Position numbers and translations under genes: made by a program. DNA of 64,000 nt from positions 6,235,001 to 6,299,000 of the forward strand of contig NZ_CP134772.1 in the NCBI RefSeq assembly GCF_031882575.1, read 5' to 3'. Positions 6,046 through 13,065 of this stretch are shown piece after piece (position 1 is the first letter of the stretch; each line of letters begins with the position of its first letter). Below the pieces are notes generated by a model. That model ran no database searches, had not been told where the DNA came from, and worked only from the letters and a program-made list of their open reading frames with translations. Source of the stretch: Pseudomonas sp. VD-NE ins. Lineage in GTDB: Bacteria > Pseudomonadota > Gammaproteobacteria > Pseudomonadales > Pseudomonadaceae.

Positions 6046-7242
6046 ATGTCCCTGCCTAGCCTGCGCCTCAAAGCCAACGCCGACCGTCGCCTGCGCAACG
6101 GCCACTTGTGGGTCTACAGCAACGAAATCGATGTAGCCGCCACCCCGCTGCACGGCTTCAATGCCGGCGACCAGGCCATCCTCGAAGCCGCCGGCGGCAA
6201 GCCGCTGGGCATCGTGGCGATGAGCCCGAACAACCTGATCTGCGCCCGCCTGCTGTCGCGCGACATTAAAGTTGCGCTGGACAAATCGCTGCTGGTGCAC
6301 CGTCTGAACGTGGCCCTGTCGCTGCGCGAGCGCCTGTTCGACAAACCGTTCTACCGTCTGGTCTACGGTGATTCCGACCTGTTGCCAGGCCTGGTCGTTG
6401 ACCGTTTCGGTGACATCCTTGTGGTCCAGATCGCCTCGGCGACCATGGAAGCACATAAAGATGACGTGATCGCAGCCCTGACCCAAGTGCTCAAGCCAAG
6501 CGGCATTCTGTTCAAGAACGACTCTGCCGCCCGTGACGCCGAAGGCCTCAACCGCTACGTCGAAACCGTGTTCGGCCTGGTGCCGGAGTGGGTGGCGCTG
6601 GAAGAGAACGGCGTGAAGTTCGAAGCCCCGGTCATTCAGGGTCAGAAAACCGGCTGGTTCTACGACCACCGCATGAACCGCGCACGCCTGGCGCCGTACG
6701 CCAAAGGCAAACGCGTCCTCGACCTCTATAGCTACATCGGCGGATGGGGCGTGCAGGCTGCGGCGTTTGGCGCCAGCGAAGTGTTCTGCGTCGACGCCTC
6801 GGCTTTCGCCCTCGACGGTGTTGAGCGAAACGCTGCACTGAACGGTTTCGCCGATAAGATGACCTGCATCGAAGGCGACGTTTTCGAAGCCCTGAAAGAA
6901 CTGAAAGCCAGCGAAGAACGCTTCGACGTGATCGTTGCCGATCCGCCAGCGTTCATCAAACGCAAGAAAGACATGAAAAACGGCGAAGGCGCCTACCGCC
7001 GCCTGAACGAGCAAGCCATGCGCCTGCTCAACAAGGACGGCATCCTGGTCAGCGCATCCTGCTCGATGCACCTACCGGAAGATGATCTGCAGAACATCCT
7101 GCTGACCAGCGCCCGTCACCTGGATCGCAATATCCAGTTGCTCGAGCGTGGCGGTCAGGGCCCGGATCACCCGGTGCACCCTGCCATCGCCGAAACGCGC
7201 TACATCAAGAGCATTACCTGCCGCCTGCTGCCCAACAGCTGA
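6046..7242 (+). CDS. rlmI: 23S rRNA m5C1962 methyltransferase, RlmI type
   Basis: A 398-residue SAM-dependent methyltransferase. An N-terminal PUA-like domain (LRLKANADRRLRNGHLWVYSNEID...FNAGDQAILEAAGGKPLGIVAM) precedes an EEHEE domain and a Rossmann methyltransferase domain. VLDLYSYIGGWGVQAA binds SAM, VIVADPPAFIKRKKD is motif IV, and SASCSMHL carries the probable catalytic Cys. E. coli RlmI has nearly the same length. The ATG at 6046 follows CCGGAGCGACGTC, a good ribosome binding site; an upstream in-frame extension to 5902 runs through the REP and is rejected. An intrinsic terminator follows. Confidence 0.93.
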   Translation: MSLPSLRLKANADRRLRNGHLWVYSNEIDVAATPLHGFNAGDQAILEAAGGKPLGIVAMSPNNLICARLLSRDIKVALDKSLLVHRLNVALSLRERLFDKPFYRLVYGDSDLLPGLVVDRFGDILVVQIASATMEAHKDDVIAALTQVLKPSGILFKNDSAARDAEGLNRYVETVFGLVPEWVALEENGVKFEAPVIQGQKTGWFYDHRMNRARLAPYAKGKRVLDLYSYIGGWGVQAAAFGASEVFCVDASAFALDGVERNAALNGFADKMTCIEGDVFEALKELKASEERFDVIVADPPAFIKRKKDMKNGEGAYRRLNEQAMRLLNKDGILVSASCSMHLPEDDLQNILLTSARHLDRNIQLLERGGQGPDHPVHPAIAETRYIKSITCRLLPNS

Positions 7243-7254
7243 TTTCTTGCGGAT

Positions 7255-7282
7255 AACGGGGAGCCAGCAGGCTCCCCGTTTT
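7255..7282 (+). terminator. intrinsic terminator of rlmI
   Basis: AACGGGGAGCC (7255-7265) and GGCTCCCCGTT (7270-7280) make a perfect 11-bp stem with loop AGCA, followed by TT and a T-rich stretch. It closes the rlmI unit and separates it from the accessory island. Confidence 0.85.
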
Positions 7283-7285
7283 GGT

Positions 7286-7458
7286 TTCAGGCATAGCCCT
7301 TCCCTTCGCAATTCCCTTGGACTTCCTACAATTATTTTCCCGCAGACATGCAGGACATTTCCTTACGCCTTTTAATTATTGAAAGTTTCCCTACAAGTTC
7401 ATCTCCAGCTAAAGACTACTCCGACAAAATTACTGGAAATTTCCTACTTAATATCCCC
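7286..7458. other. AT-rich non-coding leader of the accessory island
   Basis: No gene is seen between the rlmI terminator and the promoter at 7459. Composition changes sharply: 44 of 120 bases are G or C in 7381-7500 by hand count, against roughly 60% or more in the neighbours. There are several short TAATTATT-like tracts. This is consistent with imported DNA or a regulatory region; no direct repeats or integrase remnants are recognised. Confidence 0.6.
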
Positions 7459-7486
7459 TTGCCAATAATCCATTACAAACTATTAT
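7459..7486 (+). promoter_or_regulatory. putative sigma-70 promoter of the peptide operon
   Basis: TTGCCA (7459-7464) and TATTAT (7481-7486) are separated by 16 bases, close to the sigma-70 consensus TTGACA-17-TATAAT. Transcription would begin near 7493 and give an untranslated leader of about 47 bases before the ATG at 7540. Confidence 0.5.
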
Positions 7487-7492
7487 GAAGTT

Positions 7493-7508
7493 GTCACCAC
7501 AAGGTGAC
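7493..7508 (+). promoter_or_regulatory. inverted repeat at the expected transcription start
   Basis: GTCACC (7493-7498) and GGTGAC (7503-7508) form a perfect 6-bp stem with loop ACAA. The flanks GAAGTT and TTCAAC give further partial symmetry. Its position right after the -10 box suits an operator or a 5' mRNA hairpin. Confidence 0.4.
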
Positions 7509-7539
7509 TTCAACTATCAATGAACAAGGAGTTCACATC

Positions 7540-7611
7540 ATGAAAAGTATTTCTCTGGAAAGTAAAAAAATTGCAAATCTGGCTTTTCTGGTTGCCCCTA
7601 AAGCCCGTTAA
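7540..7611 (+). CDS. 23-residue peptide, candidate precursor of a peptide-derived metabolite
   Basis: A very short gene encoding 23 residues, starting MKSISLESKK and ending VAPKAR. The ATG at 7540 is preceded by AAGGAG, a near-ideal ribosome binding site, eight bases away. The peptide has three Ser (3, 5, 8), four Lys, one Arg and a hydrophobic centre (ANLAFLV). It has no Cys, Thr, Tyr or Trp. It stands first after a promoter, 71 bp before a SagB-type oxidoreductase and separated from it by a terminator-like hairpin, the layout expected for a ribosomal precursor peptide. It does not match PqqA (no Glu-x3-Tyr), mycofactocin MftA, microcin C or methanobactin precursors. Alternatives are a regulatory leader peptide, or chance. 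The function is inferred from context only. Confidence 0.6.
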   Translation: MKSISLESKKIANLAFLVAPKAR

Positions 7612-7619
7612 GTAAGTCT

Positions 7620-7655
7620 GGACGCCGGGGAGTGCCGGCAACCCGGTGTCCTTTT
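7620..7655 (+). terminator. attenuator-like hairpin between peptide gene and enzymes
   Basis: GGACGCCGGG (7620-7629) pairs with CCCGGTGTCC (7642-7651) over 10 positions with one G-U pair, around a 12-base loop, and is followed at once by TTTT. It begins nine bases after the peptide stop. A leaky terminator here would give more transcript for the peptide than for the enzymes. Confidence 0.7.
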
Positions 7656-7682
7656 GACTTTACCCAGAGTGAATACCCCCAC

Positions 7683-8756
7683 ATGCACATCAATCCTTAC
7701 CTGTTTATATTGCCACGCCCACCGGGACAAGTAGTATGGAACTATAAAAACCATACTCAGCACGAACTTGATCTCAACTATACCTCTCGCCTTGCGCAAC
7801 TAATCAACAACCCTGAACTGTTCGACACTCACAACATAATAGACACACAATTACTAAGTGCGGACATTCTAACCGTTTCAAAAATAGACAACCCGCAATG
7901 GGGCTGGGACGAACTGTCGAAGATTTACCACATCGGTACGCAAAACATTCCCTGCGAACATGCCCCACAGAATATTCACGAGTGGTCGAGACTCTATCTC
8001 GCGCACTGCAATGAAGTATTGGCCTCGCCGGCCCCCGCAACCAACCGCCCGACGCTTGAATCCGGACAGCGGATTGCTCTGCCGGCGCCACGCGTATTGA
8101 GTGATGACAGCCTGGGAAATGTGCTGCTCCAGCGCAAAACCTGCCGCTCCTATACGGGTGCAACGATAGCGTTGATTGACGTCGGAACCCTGCTTTACCT
8201 TTCCCTCGGTTATTTGCGCGAACGAGACAATGATCGCGACGACAGCATTGCCCAAGGGCTCAGCGCACGGCGCAGCAGTCCTTCCGCGGGAGGCCTGAAC
8301 GCCTGCGAAGGCTTCCTGCTGGTCCAGAATGTCGAGGACCTGGAGCCGGGCATCTATGCCTACCACCCGGCCGACCACACCCTGAGCCGGATCAATCCAT
8401 TGCCTGAATCAGCGCTGGGCCAATTGCTCGGCGGTCAGCATTTCATTAACAACCTGCCGTTGGGGTTGTTCATCACCGCCCGTTTTGACCAGCTCTGGTG
8501 GAAGTACGAACACTCGCGGGCCTATCGCATGGCCTTCGTTGAAGCGGGGCACTTGTCGCAAACCTTTCAACTGGTCGCCACGGCGCTGGGCCTCAACACC
8601 TGGTTGACCGGCGCGTTTGCCGACCAGCAGGTCGAAAGACTCCTCAATATCGAGGGCAGTGCTGAACAACCGCTGTTCTTTGTTGGCTGCGGGCAAAGCG
8701 ACGGACAAGTGATGTGCCGCGAAATGCGCGATCTGTTGCGCGAGGGGCAAGCATGA
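7683..8756 (+). CDS. SagB/McbC-type nitroreductase-fold flavin oxidoreductase
   Basis: A 357-residue FMN-dependent oxidoreductase of the SagB/ThcOx group. Residues 1-120 form an N-terminal domain that may bind peptide. The nitroreductase fold follows: RKTCRSYTGATI (151-162), SPSAGGLNACEGFLLV (199-214), GIYAYHPADHTL (223-234), then KYEHSRAYRMAFVEAGHLSQ (274-293) and ATALGL..WLTGAFAD (299-314). Family members oxidise thiazolines and oxazolines to azoles in ribosomal peptides or act as oxidase domains in pigment synthases. No YcaO cyclodehydratase is nearby, so classical azole formation is not supported. The ATG at 7683 has only a weak AGAGTGA upstream; a GTG at 7632 inside the hairpin is less likely. 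It overlaps the next gene by ATGA. Confidence 0.85.
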   Translation: MHINPYLFILPRPPGQVVWNYKNHTQHELDLNYTSRLAQLINNPELFDTHNIIDTQLLSADILTVSKIDNPQWGWDELSKIYHIGTQNIPCEHAPQNIHEWSRLYLAHCNEVLASPAPATNRPTLESGQRIALPAPRVLSDDSLGNVLLQRKTCRSYTGATIALIDVGTLLYLSLGYLRERDNDRDDSIAQGLSARRSSPSAGGLNACEGFLLVQNVEDLEPGIYAYHPADHTLSRINPLPESALGQLLGGQHFINNLPLGLFITARFDQLWWKYEHSRAYRMAFVEAGHLSQTFQLVATALGLNTWLTGAFADQQVERLLNIEGSAEQPLFFVGCGQSDGQVMCREMRDLLREGQA

Positions 8757-9730
8757 CCCTGCCAATTGCCGAGCCGGATGAAGCGCCGGTGTCCTGGGCG
8801 CTGAAATTCACCCTGGGAGACTGGGAAACACGCGCCTCGGTGCGCAGCAGCACCCATGATTATCAATTGCCCGACGATGTACCGCTGCAACTGCAAACCC
8901 GCCACTGGTTTCCACCGGCGTTTCTGCCCTATCTGGCACATCCTGCCATCCAGGCGGCGGGGCGTGACGTGATGCACCGATTGACAGCCAACCACCTGGT
9001 GCACTTTCTCGACTACACCACTCTGCTCGAACACCGCATCGTCAATCGTGCCGTGGAAGTCATCGTGCACCGGGAACTGCCCATTTATGTGCCTCTGCCG
9101 ATGAAACACGCGGCGCTGCAGCTCTACACCGACGAGGGTTATCACGCGCTGTTCTCCAATCGCCTCGCTGAACAGATCGCCGCATTCTACGGGTTCACCG
9201 GACGCCCGGTGGTTCCGAAGCGCATTACCCGCCTCAATGCACTGATCGCCCGCACCCCGGAAAAAAACCGCGCACTGGCATGGTTTCTGCTCGGCTTCGT
9301 CTCGGAAACCATCATTGCCCGGGAGCTGCTGGACGTCTGCCGCGACATCCTTGTTTCCAGCGTGAACGACATGCTGCGCGACCATCTGACTGACGAAGCC
9401 CGCCACAGTCGCTACTTCAGCGAGGTCTTCCATTATCTCTGGCTGTCGATGAACAGCCGCCAGCGTGCGTTTGCGAGCAGGACACTGCTGGAGATCATCG
9501 GCATTTTTTTCGAGGCCGACGAAGTCTGGCTGCAACAGAGCCTGCGAGGAGCCGGCATCGCCGACAGCGACGTGATGAACATCGTCGGCGGCATGGCAAC
9601 GGTGCAGGCCAATCGTGCGCGTGCACGATCAGGCGCCATCGCGACACTGGATGCACTGCGCAAGGCCGGTTTTTTCGCTCTTCCCCACAACCAGAAACTT
9701 TTCGCCAAGGCAGGACTGATCGATGGATAA
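8753..9730 (+). CDS. AurF-family diiron N-oxygenase-like protein
   Basis: A 325-residue helical protein with a complete diiron ligand pattern. E93 is followed after 34 residues by E128-G-Y-H131. E185 is followed by H211 and E215-A-R-H218. This matches, by recalled spacing, the seven ligands of AurF (E101, E136, H139, E196, H223, E227, H230). AurF relatives oxidise amines to hydroxylamines, nitroso or nitro groups; some act on other positions. The ATG at 8753 overlaps the stop of the preceding gene (ATGA), with GAGGGG upstream, and the end overlaps the MFS gene by 8 bp. This indicates strict coupling in one operon. The substrate is unknown; the peptide, or a residue released from it, is possible. 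Confidence 0.82.
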   Translation: MTLPIAEPDEAPVSWALKFTLGDWETRASVRSSTHDYQLPDDVPLQLQTRHWFPPAFLPYLAHPAIQAAGRDVMHRLTANHLVHFLDYTTLLEHRIVNRAVEVIVHRELPIYVPLPMKHAALQLYTDEGYHALFSNRLAEQIAAFYGFTGRPVVPKRITRLNALIARTPEKNRALAWFLLGFVSETIIARELLDVCRDILVSSVNDMLRDHLTDEARHSRYFSEVFHYLWLSMNSRQRAFASRTLLEIIGIFFEADEVWLQQSLRGAGIADSDVMNIVGGMATVQANRARARSGAIATLDALRKAGFFALPHNQKLFAKAGLIDG

Positions 9731-10955
9731 AGGAAAATCCGTGGTAACCACAGGGCAGCGCCGCGCCGCTGTCAGCCTGTTGCTGGCGATGGTGTTGCTT
9801 GGCGTGTTTCCACTGGATGTTCTGCTTCCTTCCTTTCCAGCATTGGCGACGCACTTTCGCAGCACCCAGGCGGATATCGCGCTGTCCATCAGCCTGTTCG
9901 CCGTGGGGATCGCATTTGCCCAGGTCTTGATCGGTCCGCTCTCGGACGTGATCGGGCGCAAGGGCCTGTTACTCGCCGGCATGAGTGCCTCGATGCTTGG
10001 CGCGCTCGGTTGCGTGATGACCTCCGATTACACGCTGTTCCTGGTATTCCGGGTGATGCAGGCCTTGGGCTGTGGATGTTTCGTGCTGTCCCAGGCGCTG
10101 GTGCAGGATCTGTTCGAAGGCGAGGAGCGCGACCGTTTGCGTATCCTGATGGTCACGGCTACGGGCATTTTCATCTCGGTGTCGCCGCTGGCCGGCACCT
10201 TTCTCCAGGCCACACTCGGCTGGCGCGGCAGCTTCTGGGTGTTTACCGCACTGTCCGCCACGGTGCTGATCAAGGCCTGGCTGTTTTTACCAAACAGTCG
10301 TCCGGCCTACAGCGGCACACGGCTCGGATTCATTCAGTCCTACCGTCGCGTGCTGGGGGACTTCGAATTTGTCGGCTACTGGCTGATTTCAGCGTTCGCT
10401 TTCGCCTGCCACTTCTCGTTCATCGTGATTTCGCCGCTGATCTTCATGGACCAACTGCAACTCGCGCCTTATGACTTTTCGCTGATCCTGCTGGTTTACG
10501 GCGCGGCCTATGTCGTCGGTGGGATCCTCGCTGCCGTGCTGAATCGACGCATCACGCCAGTTCAGCAGATTTTCACCGGGCTCAGCCTGATCCTGCTGTC
10601 GGGGCTGGCGATGCTGTATCTGGCAGCCGATCATGCGTTGGCTCCGGCAACCGTATTGATCCCGATGCTGATCTGCACCGCAGGTACCACCATTGCCCGC
10701 CCCGCCGCCACTTCCCGGGCCATGGGCCTGTTTCCTGAGAATGCCGGTACTTCGGCATCGGCGGGCAGCACGATCATCTTTATCTGTGGTGGGCTTATCA
10801 GCGCGTTGATCAGCCTCAGCCCGGCCAATCTGCAATCGACACTGGGCTACAGCTTTGTGCTGCTGAGCACGACAGCGCTGGTGCTGAACAACAGGCTCAG
10901 CCGCCGCGCAAGAAACGTTGAAGCCAACGTCGTTGCGCAGACCGGCGGTGATTAA
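9723..10955 (+). CDS. MFS exporter, Bcr/CflA type
   Basis: A 410-residue inner-membrane protein with about 12 hydrophobic helices. The opening LLLAMVLLGVFPLDVLLPSFPALATHFRS and motif A GPLSDVIGRKGLL between helices 2 and 3 are typical of the Bcr/CflA drug:proton antiporters. FRVMQALGCGCFVLSQALVQDLF is the helix 4 signature. Its start lies inside the end of the diiron oxygenase gene (8-bp overlap), so it is most likely the exporter or self-resistance pump for the product of this cluster. Pseudomonads also carry free-standing Bcr-type pumps, so the substrate is an inference. Confidence 0.88.
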   Translation: MDKGKSVVTTGQRRAAVSLLLAMVLLGVFPLDVLLPSFPALATHFRSTQADIALSISLFAVGIAFAQVLIGPLSDVIGRKGLLLAGMSASMLGALGCVMTSDYTLFLVFRVMQALGCGCFVLSQALVQDLFEGEERDRLRILMVTATGIFISVSPLAGTFLQATLGWRGSFWVFTALSATVLIKAWLFLPNSRPAYSGTRLGFIQSYRRVLGDFEFVGYWLISAFAFACHFSFIVISPLIFMDQLQLAPYDFSLILLVYGAAYVVGGILAAVLNRRITPVQQIFTGLSLILLSGLAMLYLAADHALAPATVLIPMLICTAGTTIARPAATSRAMGLFPENAGTSASAGSTIIFICGGLISALISLSPANLQSTLGYSFVLLSTTALVLNNRLSRRARNVEANVVAQTGGD

Positions 10956-10966
10956 ACCCGCCGGTC
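10940..10966 (+). terminator. stem-loop spanning the MFS stop codon
   Basis: GACCGGCGG (10940-10948) and CCGCCGGTC (10958-10966) form a perfect 9-bp stem, with the TAA stop in the 9-base loop. No T-run follows. It probably marks the end of the island operon. From here to 11223 (257 bases) no gene is seen; a TAGAAT at 11034 could be a -10 box for ilvD, but no clear -35 accompanies it. Confidence 0.45.
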
Positions 10967-11223
10967 GTCATTCCATACACGCCGTCTGCACTGGAACAAC
11001 GCTTTGCGCCATTCCCTCCAGACGCCAGCGGTGTAGAATCGGCTGATTCATCGCCATTCATCCCCCGGCGGGTTTATGAGCTCAGGCTGAGACCAGCGGC
11101 GATCCCGCAACGTCATCGGCAACTTCACGGACACACGGCCATTTCTGAGTGTTCCAGACGTCAATAGAAGCTCACTCCCCTTTTGCACCTGATTAGTAAG
11201 TGATTAGCCGCCCGGAGTGTTCC

Positions 11224-13065
11224 ATGCCAGATTACCGTTCGAAAACATCCACCCACGGCCGCAACATGGCCGGCGCCCGCGCACTGTGGCGCGCCACCGG
11301 CATGAAAGATGACGACTTCAAAAAGCCGATCATCGCCATTGCCAACTCGTTCACCCAGTTCGTACCGGGCCACGTGCACCTGAAGGATCTGGGCCAACTG
11401 GTCGCCCGTGAAATCGAACGCGCCGGCGGTGTAGCGAAAGAATTCAACACCATTGCCGTGGATGACGGCATCGCCATGGGCCACGACGGCATGCTGTATT
11501 CGCTGCCGAGCCGCGAGATCATCGCCGACTCCGTTGAGTACATGGTCAATGCCCACTGTGCCGACGCCATCGTCTGCATCTCCAACTGCGACAAGATCAC
11601 CCCGGGCATGCTGATGGCTGCCTTGCGCCTGAACATTCCGGTGATCTTCGTTTCCGGCGGTCCGATGGAAGCCGGCAAGACCAAACTCGCGTCCCACGGC
11701 CTCGACCTCGTCGACGCCATGGTAATTGCCGCCGACTCCAGCGCTTCTGACGAGAAAGTCGCTGAGTACGAGCGCAGCGCCTGCCCGACCTGCGGTTCGT
11801 GCTCCGGCATGTTTACCGCCAACTCGATGAACTGCCTGACCGAAGCACTGGGCCTGGCATTGCCGGGCAACGGTTCGACACTCGCCACCCACAGTGATCG
11901 CGAACAGCTGTTCCTGCAGGCTGGCCGCACCATCGTCGAGCTGTGCAAGCGCTACTACGGCGAGAACGACGAATCGGTGCTGCCACGCAACATCGCCAAC
12001 TTCAAGGCGTTCGAGAACGCGATGATGCTAGACATCGCCATGGGCGGTTCGACCAACACCATCCTGCACTTGCTCGCTGCCGCCCAAGAGGCGGAGATCG
12101 ATTTCGACCTGCGCGACATCGACCGCCTCTCGCGCAGCGTTCCACAGCTGTGCAAAGTGGCGCCGAACATTCAGAAGTACCACATGGAAGACGTGCACCG
12201 CGCCGGCGGCATCTTCAGCATCCTCGGCTCACTGGCCCGTGGCGGTCTGCTGCACACCGACCTGCCGACCGTGCACAGCCGCAGCATGGAAGAAGCCATC
12301 GCCAAGTGGGATATCACCCAGACCACCGATGAAGCCGTGCATCATTTCTTCAAGGCAGGCCCTGCCGGTATTCCAACGCAGACGGCGTTCAGCCAGTCGA
12401 CCCGTTGGGAAACCCTGGATGACGACCGTGAAAACGGCTGCATCCGCAGTTTCGAACACGCCTATTCGCAAGAAGGTGGCCTGGCCGTTCTGTACGGCAA
12501 CATCGCGCTCGATGGCTGCGTGGTGAAAACCGCCGGTGTCGACGAATCGATCCACGTCTTCGAAGGCAACGCGAAGATCTTTGAAAGCCAGGACAGCGCC
12601 GTACGCGGCATCCTCGCCGACGAAGTGAAGGCTGGTGACATCGTCATCATTCGCTACGAAGGTCCGAAAGGCGGCCCGGGCATGCAGGAAATGCTCTACC
12701 CGACTTCGTACCTGAAATCCAAAGGCCTGGGCAAAGCCTGCGCGCTGCTCACCGACGGTCGTTTCTCCGGCGGTACTTCCGGTCTGTCCATCGGTCACGC
12801 TTCGCCAGAAGCTGCCGCCGGCGGTGCGATCGGTCTGGTGCAGGATGGCGACAAAGTGCTGATCGACATCCCGAACCGCTCGATCAACCTGTTGGTCAGC
12901 GACGAGGAACTGGCGGCACGCCGCGCCGAGCAAGACAAGAAAGGCTGGAAACCGGTGGAGATTCGTCCGCGCAAGGTGACCACCGCCCTCAAGGCTTACG
13001 CTCTGCTGGCGACCAGTGCCGATAAAGGTGCGGTGCGTAACAAAGCGATGCTCGACGGGCTGTAA
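11224..13065 (+). CDS. ilvD: dihydroxy-acid dehydratase
   Basis: A 613-residue iron-sulfur dehydratase of branched-chain amino acid and pantothenate synthesis. It converts 2,3-dihydroxy acids to 2-keto acids for valine, leucine and isoleucine. Cluster ligands are visible in [12 protein letters not shown] (Cys122) and [18 protein letters not shown] (near residue 195). [14 protein letters not shown] near the C-terminus is the second family signature. The length matches the E. coli enzyme. The ATG at 11224 follows CGGAGTG; the frame extends upstream to 11200 only by an alternative start without support. It is followed by a palindromic repeat. Confidence 0.98.

Follow-up and report, generated by a model that had tools for sequence, protein, structure and literature searches.

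A recurring Pseudomonas cassette of a short peptide gene, a SagB-type dehydrogenase and an AurF-like diiron enzyme: a candidate minimal RiPP-type pathway

SagB/McbC enzymes and ThcOx are known as azoline oxidases, and AurF as a p-aminobenzoate N-oxygenase. Here we describe a four-gene cassette of Pseudomonas sp. VD-NE ins in which relatives of both enzymes are encoded behind a peptide of 23 residues and ahead of an exporter of the major facilitator superfamily (MFS). The cassette (positions 7540-10955, Table 1) lies in a 64,000-nucleotide stretch of contig NZ_CP134772.1, which we refer to as the window; the source genome consists of one 6.70-Mb contig. The set noted in the initial annotation is confirmed: the peptide, the SagB-type enzyme, the AurF-type enzyme and the MFS protein form a recurring unit. 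We consider it probable (roughly three chances in four) that they make up a minimal pathway of the kind that yields ribosomally synthesized and post-translationally modified peptides (RiPPs): the RiPP recognition element (RRE)-like domain of SagB would bind the precursor, SagB and the AurF-like enzyme would oxidise it, and the MFS protein would export the product.

Several described systems share part of this arrangement. The pyrroloquinoline quinone (PQQ) pathway (PqqA, PqqD) likewise is small and uses a precursor of 23-24 residues together with an RRE; PqqA, however, keeps a Glu and a Tyr and meets a radical S-adenosylmethionine enzyme, whereas in the cassette the conserved residues are a Glu and an Asn, and the enzymes are of the flavin and diiron types. 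AurF belongs to the same Pfam family as the cassette protein and has its seven iron ligands at matching positions, although the Arg that binds p-aminobenzoate in AurF aligns with Tyr88. BmdC of bacillamide synthesis acts on the carrier of a non-ribosomal peptide synthetase (NRPS), whereas the cassette lacks an NRPS gene and invariably includes one for a peptide. ThcOx and the azoline oxidases differ in that the cassette has neither a cyclodehydratase nor an invariant Cys, Ser or Thr in its peptide (SagB matches ThcOx over 313 residues at 23% identity); moreover, its SagB has one predicted RRE, whereas ThcOx has additional copies (PMC8795117, available in part). Cluster OS3 of Pseudomonas sp. 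Os17 (Os1348-1351) also combines a gene for a small protein with a SagB-type gene, but that protein has 85 residues, acetyltransferase and peptidase genes are present, and the available part of the text mentions no AurF-like gene (PMC7726476); this cluster was rejected as the same system. The same holds for mangotoxin, whose mgo operon has an AurF-like gene together with an NRPS (PMC3945005, available in part), and for the nitrilobacillins (PMC13060819, available in part), which represent a different system.

Within the open-access literature (most subscription journals lying outside the search) no paper was found that names SagB together with AurF, nor one that names AurF with RiPP and precursor peptide or with 'ribosomally synthesized'. 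As far as this literature goes, the earlier statement that no described pathway pairs SagB and AurF without YcaO, NRPS or polyketide synthase genes can thus be maintained. Because the gene combination was found in no paper, the product is probably a previously undescribed natural product. RiPPs as a kind are already known, and the cassette is in effect a candidate new class of them.

The peptide gene and its linkage to the enzyme genes

A short peptide gene with a strong ribosome site, followed by three overlapping genes, had been noted in the window, and both parts of this description are correct: AAGGAG lies 8 bases ahead of the start codon of the open reading frame (ORF; Table 1), sagB and aurF overlap by 4 bases (ATGA) and aurF and the MFS gene by 8 bases. 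A spacer of 71 bases separates the peptide ORF from sagB. We examined 113 loci for the peptide (the window plus sets of 12, 80 and 20), which are not all independent, some genomes being present both under our G handles and as named contigs. Sequence upstream of an existing sagB is available for 110 of these, including some broken cassettes. Left out are L041 (decayed) and L042 (a 26% AurF relative), both with neither sagB nor peptide, and L158, which is truncated by a contig edge. In all 110 loci the peptide is present and its frame is open, while the two other frames contain stops in 110 and 86 loci. Substitutions relative to the window gene are distributed as 319/284/791 over the three codon positions, and the ratio of non-synonymous to synonymous changes (pN/pS, from 86 distinct 23-codon sequences) is 0.405 for residues 2-23 and as low as 0.075 for residues 11-14. 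Given the openness of this frame only, the codon-position pattern and the low pN/pS, the sequences argue that the peptide is a real gene and not a chance ORF.

Over the 110 loci there are 70 distinct peptides, with lengths of 23 (98 loci), 22 (6), 21 (3), 26 (2) and 24 residues (1). After M1 the most conserved positions are E7, A12 and N13: Asn13 occurs in 70/70 distinct peptides, E7 and A12 each in 69/70. The sole change of E7 (to Q) belongs to locus L040, where the sagB reading frame is broken. Position 4 is I/V, position 6 L/M, position 11 I/L/M and position 17 L/V/I. Residues 15-16 and 18-26 vary between divergent cassettes, with tails such as AFLVAPKAR, ACLAAAKSR, HCLIAAKAR, NCLTAAKSR, TQLAGPVKTASK and AHLVKKTK. 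The peptide thus gives the impression of an N-terminal portion that is recognised and has its Asn fixed, followed by a freer tail; given that among close relatives residues 15-23 are well preserved (pN/pS 0.292, against 0.727 for residues 2-10), the recognised part may extend into the C-terminal half.

Ser, Thr and Cys combined are found at position 5 in 45/70 and at position 8 in 46/70 distinct peptides, and at no position is a Cys, Ser or Thr invariant across the 70. A YcaO cyclodehydratase was found neither in the window cassette nor among the genes common to the 22 cassette loci that were compared (ORFs of at least 80 amino acids); the genome's sole YcaO-family match (G000:C1:3572317-3573324, in a 734-residue frame) lies about 2.7 Mb away. 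Azole chemistry of the TOMM/LAP type (thiazole/oxazole-modified microcins, linear azol(in)e-containing peptides) was therefore rejected, and the hint of peptide heterocycles in the initial annotation does not fit.

The association of the four genes holds over a broad range of loci. An AurF protein search of 57 genomes (our own included) gave a match in 23, of which 12 were close. Of the 11 close relatives, ten carry all four genes where the window has them and encode a peptide of 23 residues in every case, two of these ten loci containing frameshifts; the eleventh is decayed. In the GTDB set (the best 80 of 113, selected by AurF) peptide, sagB, aurF and MFS gene are present in 80/80 loci, the threshold for the peptide being a forward-strand tblastn match with an E no higher than 0.01. 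Hits in 398 Pseudomonas genomes yielded 20 further, mostly divergent places: 19 extend upstream of sagB and the peptide is found in 19/19, six divergent loci revealing it only once the small ORFs ahead of sagB were read. The twentieth (L158) starts at the contig end, and its peptide sits at the opposite end of that contig. A cassette was also obtained from another GTDB genus of the same family (G1263), with the 23-residue peptide MIKTIYESKQLANWTAISTPTKG ahead of sagB (40% identity), aurF (34%) and MFS gene (43%); this peptide keeps E7, L11, A12, N13 and I17.

Searching in the other direction, a peptide profile of 15 rows matched 58 of 199 Pseudomonas genomes at E < 1e-6, the next match having an E of 0.03 (weak matches, E 0.03-1, were not counted). 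The AurF gene is present in 57 of these 58 genomes, a count that takes the 199 genomes as a subset of the 398 and excludes 45 of the 103 AurF genomes (handles above G956). The exception, G918 (L198), retains the peptide, the MFS gene and a sagB truncated after roughly 131 residues, aurF being gone; the sole genome with AurF only, G030 (L041), lacks sagB and has stops within its aurF. The gene-set search that had been proposed thus places peptide and aurF together in 57 genomes, with two exceptions that are both decayed cassettes. The result that had been named as refuting the idea, sagB and aurF commonly lacking a conserved peptide upstream, did not occur.

Table 1. Features of the cassette region, in window coordinates.
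Feature	Position	Strand	Details
Four oriented TCC(C/T)TAC-like elements	7324-7447 (starts 7324, 7360, 7388, 7442)	+	Possible regulator sites
Promoter TTGCCA-16-TATTAT	7459-7486	+	10/12 positions match
5' leader hairpin GTCACC...GGTGAC	7493-7508	+	Covariation, 25 loci chosen from 110
Ribosome site AAGGAG	7526-7531	+	8 bases ahead of peptide ATG
Putative precursor peptide ORF	7540-7611	+	MKSISLESKKIANLAFLVAPKAR, 23 codons
Hairpin between peptide and sagB	7620-7651	+	Loop GAGTGCCGGC..; covariation, 18 loci chosen from 110
sagB	7683-8756	+	357 aa; predicted RRE-like domain and SagB/ThcOx-type flavin mononucleotide (FMN) dehydrogenase, K274-Y275 motif
Predicted RRE-like domain of SagB	7683-7889	+	SagB residues 1-69
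aurF-like diiron oxygenase	8753-9730	+	325 aa
MFS exporter, closest to Bcr/CflA type	9723-10955	+	410 aa
End hairpin without T tract	10941-10965	+	Stem ACCGGCGG/CCGCCGGT, -19.3 kcal/mol

The enzymes, the proposed pathway and its alternatives

SagB falls within the SagB/ThcOx FMN dehydrogenase family (TIGR03605, 125.6 bits against a cut-off of 78.4) and its Lys-Tyr pair K274-Y275 is invariant in 79 sequences; for the peptide maturation dehydrogenases (TIGR04511) it scores 159.5 bits, below the cut-off of 240. With Foldseek, the N-terminal domain matches a series of RRE-bearing entries: TbiB1, lasso B1, TigE, PbtF, MccB, SuiB, McbB, ThcOx, TruD and 4v1t, a heterocyclase that PMC8795117 calls LynD. 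By prediction SagB carries an RRE-like fold of the leader-binding type. The AurF-like protein scores 70.8 bits with Pfam AurF (cut-off 29.6), and the seven diiron ligands E93, E128, H131, E185, H211, E215 and H218 are invariant in 57 sequences; against the 4-aminobenzoate N-oxygenase model (NF045603) it reaches 60.6 bits, the cut-off being 620. The last protein belongs to the MFS family (MFS_1, 133.3 bits). Its earlier assignment as a Bcr/CflA-type exporter can be kept in part: this type is the nearest, but the score with TIGR00710 (184.1 bits) stays under the cut-off of 200.9.

Judged from sequence, the peptide gene is real and tied to the cassette, and both enzymes retain their catalytic residues. 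Binding, modification and its site, proteolysis and export are steps that we infer. The precursor (21-26 residues) would bind as a strand to the N-terminal RRE-like domain of SagB through its conserved N-terminal part, after which SagB, with its FMN domain, and the diiron protein would dehydrogenate and oxygenate it, the invariant Asn13 or a position next to it being the most likely site. What then leaves the cell through the MFS exporter would be either the whole modified peptide or a small piece of it released by housekeeping proteases. Two features by which RiPP pathways can be recognised are a gene-encoded precursor linked to modifying enzymes, which is found here, and a leader-binding RRE domain, which is predicted. 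More tentatively, and at slightly less than even odds, it might be argued that the cassette represents a new class of RiPP: SagB, bearing an RRE, and the AurF-like enzyme would act jointly on an E-x4-A-N precursor and oxidise its invariant Asn (for example by N-hydroxylation, hydroxylation or desaturation of the side chain), the result being a small metabolite for export, much as PQQ is cut out of PqqA.

If this is true, four small genes with an enzyme pair unnamed together in the open-access literature would lead to a new oxidised peptide or metabolite. This would take SagB activity beyond azoline chemistry, and an AurF-type enzyme would act on a ribosomal peptide, the first case as far as we found. 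The cassette is small enough for co-expression from one plasmid. Given that gene callers readily overlook precursors of 23 residues, similar cassettes may have gone unnoticed elsewhere.

A number of observations weigh against the RiPP interpretation. MFS exporters of this type are not known to carry peptides of 20 residues. No protease gene is among the genes common to the 22 loci (ORFs of at least 80 amino acids); many RiPPs rely on proteases encoded outside the cluster. N13 may serve recognition rather than being the modified residue, and the peptide of the other genus has T at position 4 and Y at position 6, outside the Pseudomonas pattern. The Foldseek matches of the RRE-like fold are weak (best E 0.031), and none of the four proteins gave a Pfam or NCBIfam match for such a domain at E up to 10. 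Finally, an RRE-like domain may persist as a relic, as has been suggested for BmdC (PMC8795117, available in part).

This last point leads to the idea that SagB is a mere reductase for the AurF-like enzyme, its RRE-like fold being an evolutionary leftover as proposed for BmdC. An E-x4-A-N peptide stands beside sagB in 110/110 loci and in the other genus, whereas BmdC acts on an NRPS carrier, and we regard this idea as very improbable, even though AurF-type enzymes do require an electron donor. Slightly less improbable, yet still unlikely, is that the peptide acts as a scaffold or carrier on which a small molecule is built or attached, oxidised and released, as in PEARL pathways. The exporter is of the small-molecule type, and the near-invariant polar side chains are limited to E7 and N13, as such a role might have it; the 22 compared loci, however, share no extra gene such as a ligase.

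The most serious competitor, though unlikely as well, is a regulatory leader: translation of the peptide would act through the next hairpin, by TnaC-like arrest or as an attenuator, while the enzymes would oxidise some free small molecule, to be exported by the MFS protein. TnaC is of comparable length, with a handful of invariant residues, and lies ahead of genes for an enzyme and a transporter, and in 25/25 loci tested the short ORF stands right before a hairpin and the enzyme genes. A T tract follows this hairpin in L152 and L153, and in three loci (L040, L155 and L156) its 5' arm pairs with upstream sequence at z < -2. A general antiterminator is nevertheless not apparent, the mean z of this pairing being -0.33 in 25 loci of the 110 (about the level of shuffled sequences), and most of the hairpins have no T tract. 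Furthermore, the conservation of the peptide is anchored N-terminally, with variable C-terminal residues and length (21-26), and the RRE fold of SagB would have no role. Overall, the RiPP-type pathway remains the reading that we prefer.

Hairpins, upstream elements and distribution

The hairpin between peptide and sagB, a strong one that the initial annotation does not mention, is paired in 93.8% of the cells of an alignment of 18 loci (chosen among the loci that align), and 7/9 pairs have changed on both sides. Within its loop (7630-7641) GCCGGC is invariant in 18/18 loci, and TGCCGGC occurs within 75 bases past the peptide stop in 88/110 loci, being missing in 22; the stem covaries while the loop is kept, much as one would expect if something recognised the loop. 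The hairpin may protect or cut the precursor message, resulting in more peptide than enzyme. The hairpin in the 5' leader shows a similar pattern in 25 loci selected from the 110, where 90.7% of the cells are paired, 5/6 pairs have changed on both sides and the covariation score is reached by 0/500 shuffles, although the innermost pair fails in 11/25 loci.

A promoter of its own and an end hairpin had also been assigned to the cassette. The promoter is located at 7459-7486 (Table 1), and its -10 region (CTA...T) is largely preserved in 25 aligned upstream regions. The end hairpin exists as well, but it lacks a T tract, overlaps the MFS stop codon and was not called a terminator by the scan. 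Further upstream, TCC(C/T)TAC-like elements show a clear orientation: in the 250 bases ahead of the 110 peptides there are 208 forward against 9 reverse copies (19.4 expected from shuffles). A regulon could not be derived from the upstream motif ACTGGAANNTTCCTAC, of which the genome holds no second exact copy and one copy with a mismatch. Known RNA families were not detected in 7200-11300 at E up to 1.

The window cassette is flanked upstream by an RlmI-like RNA methyltransferase gene, ending at 7242 (best NCBIfam score 342.1 bits, under the cut-off of that model), and on the other side by ilvD (dihydroxy-acid dehydratase). Most cassettes occupy this methyltransferase-ilvD site and others lie at several different sites; in the GTDB set the methyltransferase gene is present in 80/80 and ilvD in 79/80 loci. 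Apart from these flanking genes in some of them, the 22 compared loci have no other genes in common (ORFs of at least 80 amino acids).

With E limited to 1e-20, AurF relatives are present in 103/398 Pseudomonas genomes (our own genome and some decayed copies counted) and in 4/398 genomes of a phylum sample, all four being Pseudomonas. The AurF proteins of the closest named relatives, also Pseudomonas, are 88-95% identical to that of the window, and among the matches listed (the best 120 of 548 and the best 120 of 388) all SagB homologues bearing names are from Pseudomonas. Two AurF relatives, P0231 (39% identical to the window protein) and P0238, are named Cupriavidus, P0231 pointing to a likely cassette beyond Pseudomonas; neither the plasmid search nor the class search reached them. 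Searching plasmids with SagB gave 14 records, all below 60% identity and below 80% coverage.

Decayed cassettes are found in L198 (G918), L041 (G030), L037 (G033) and L040 (G006), either by deletion of aurF and most of sagB, by loss of sagB and peptide, or by frameshifts. Given these, the cassette seems dispensable. G816 and G946 have two cassettes each. The second one of G946 (L199/L200) spans both ends of contig C6 (50911 bases), as would be the case for a circular element or for an assembly that closes upon itself; when 20 kb of this contig were compared with plasmids, the matches were only partial. Outside the window, the source genome has a second AurF-like gene (L029, G000:C1:94076-94612; 25% identical), and similar ones are present in other Pseudomonas.

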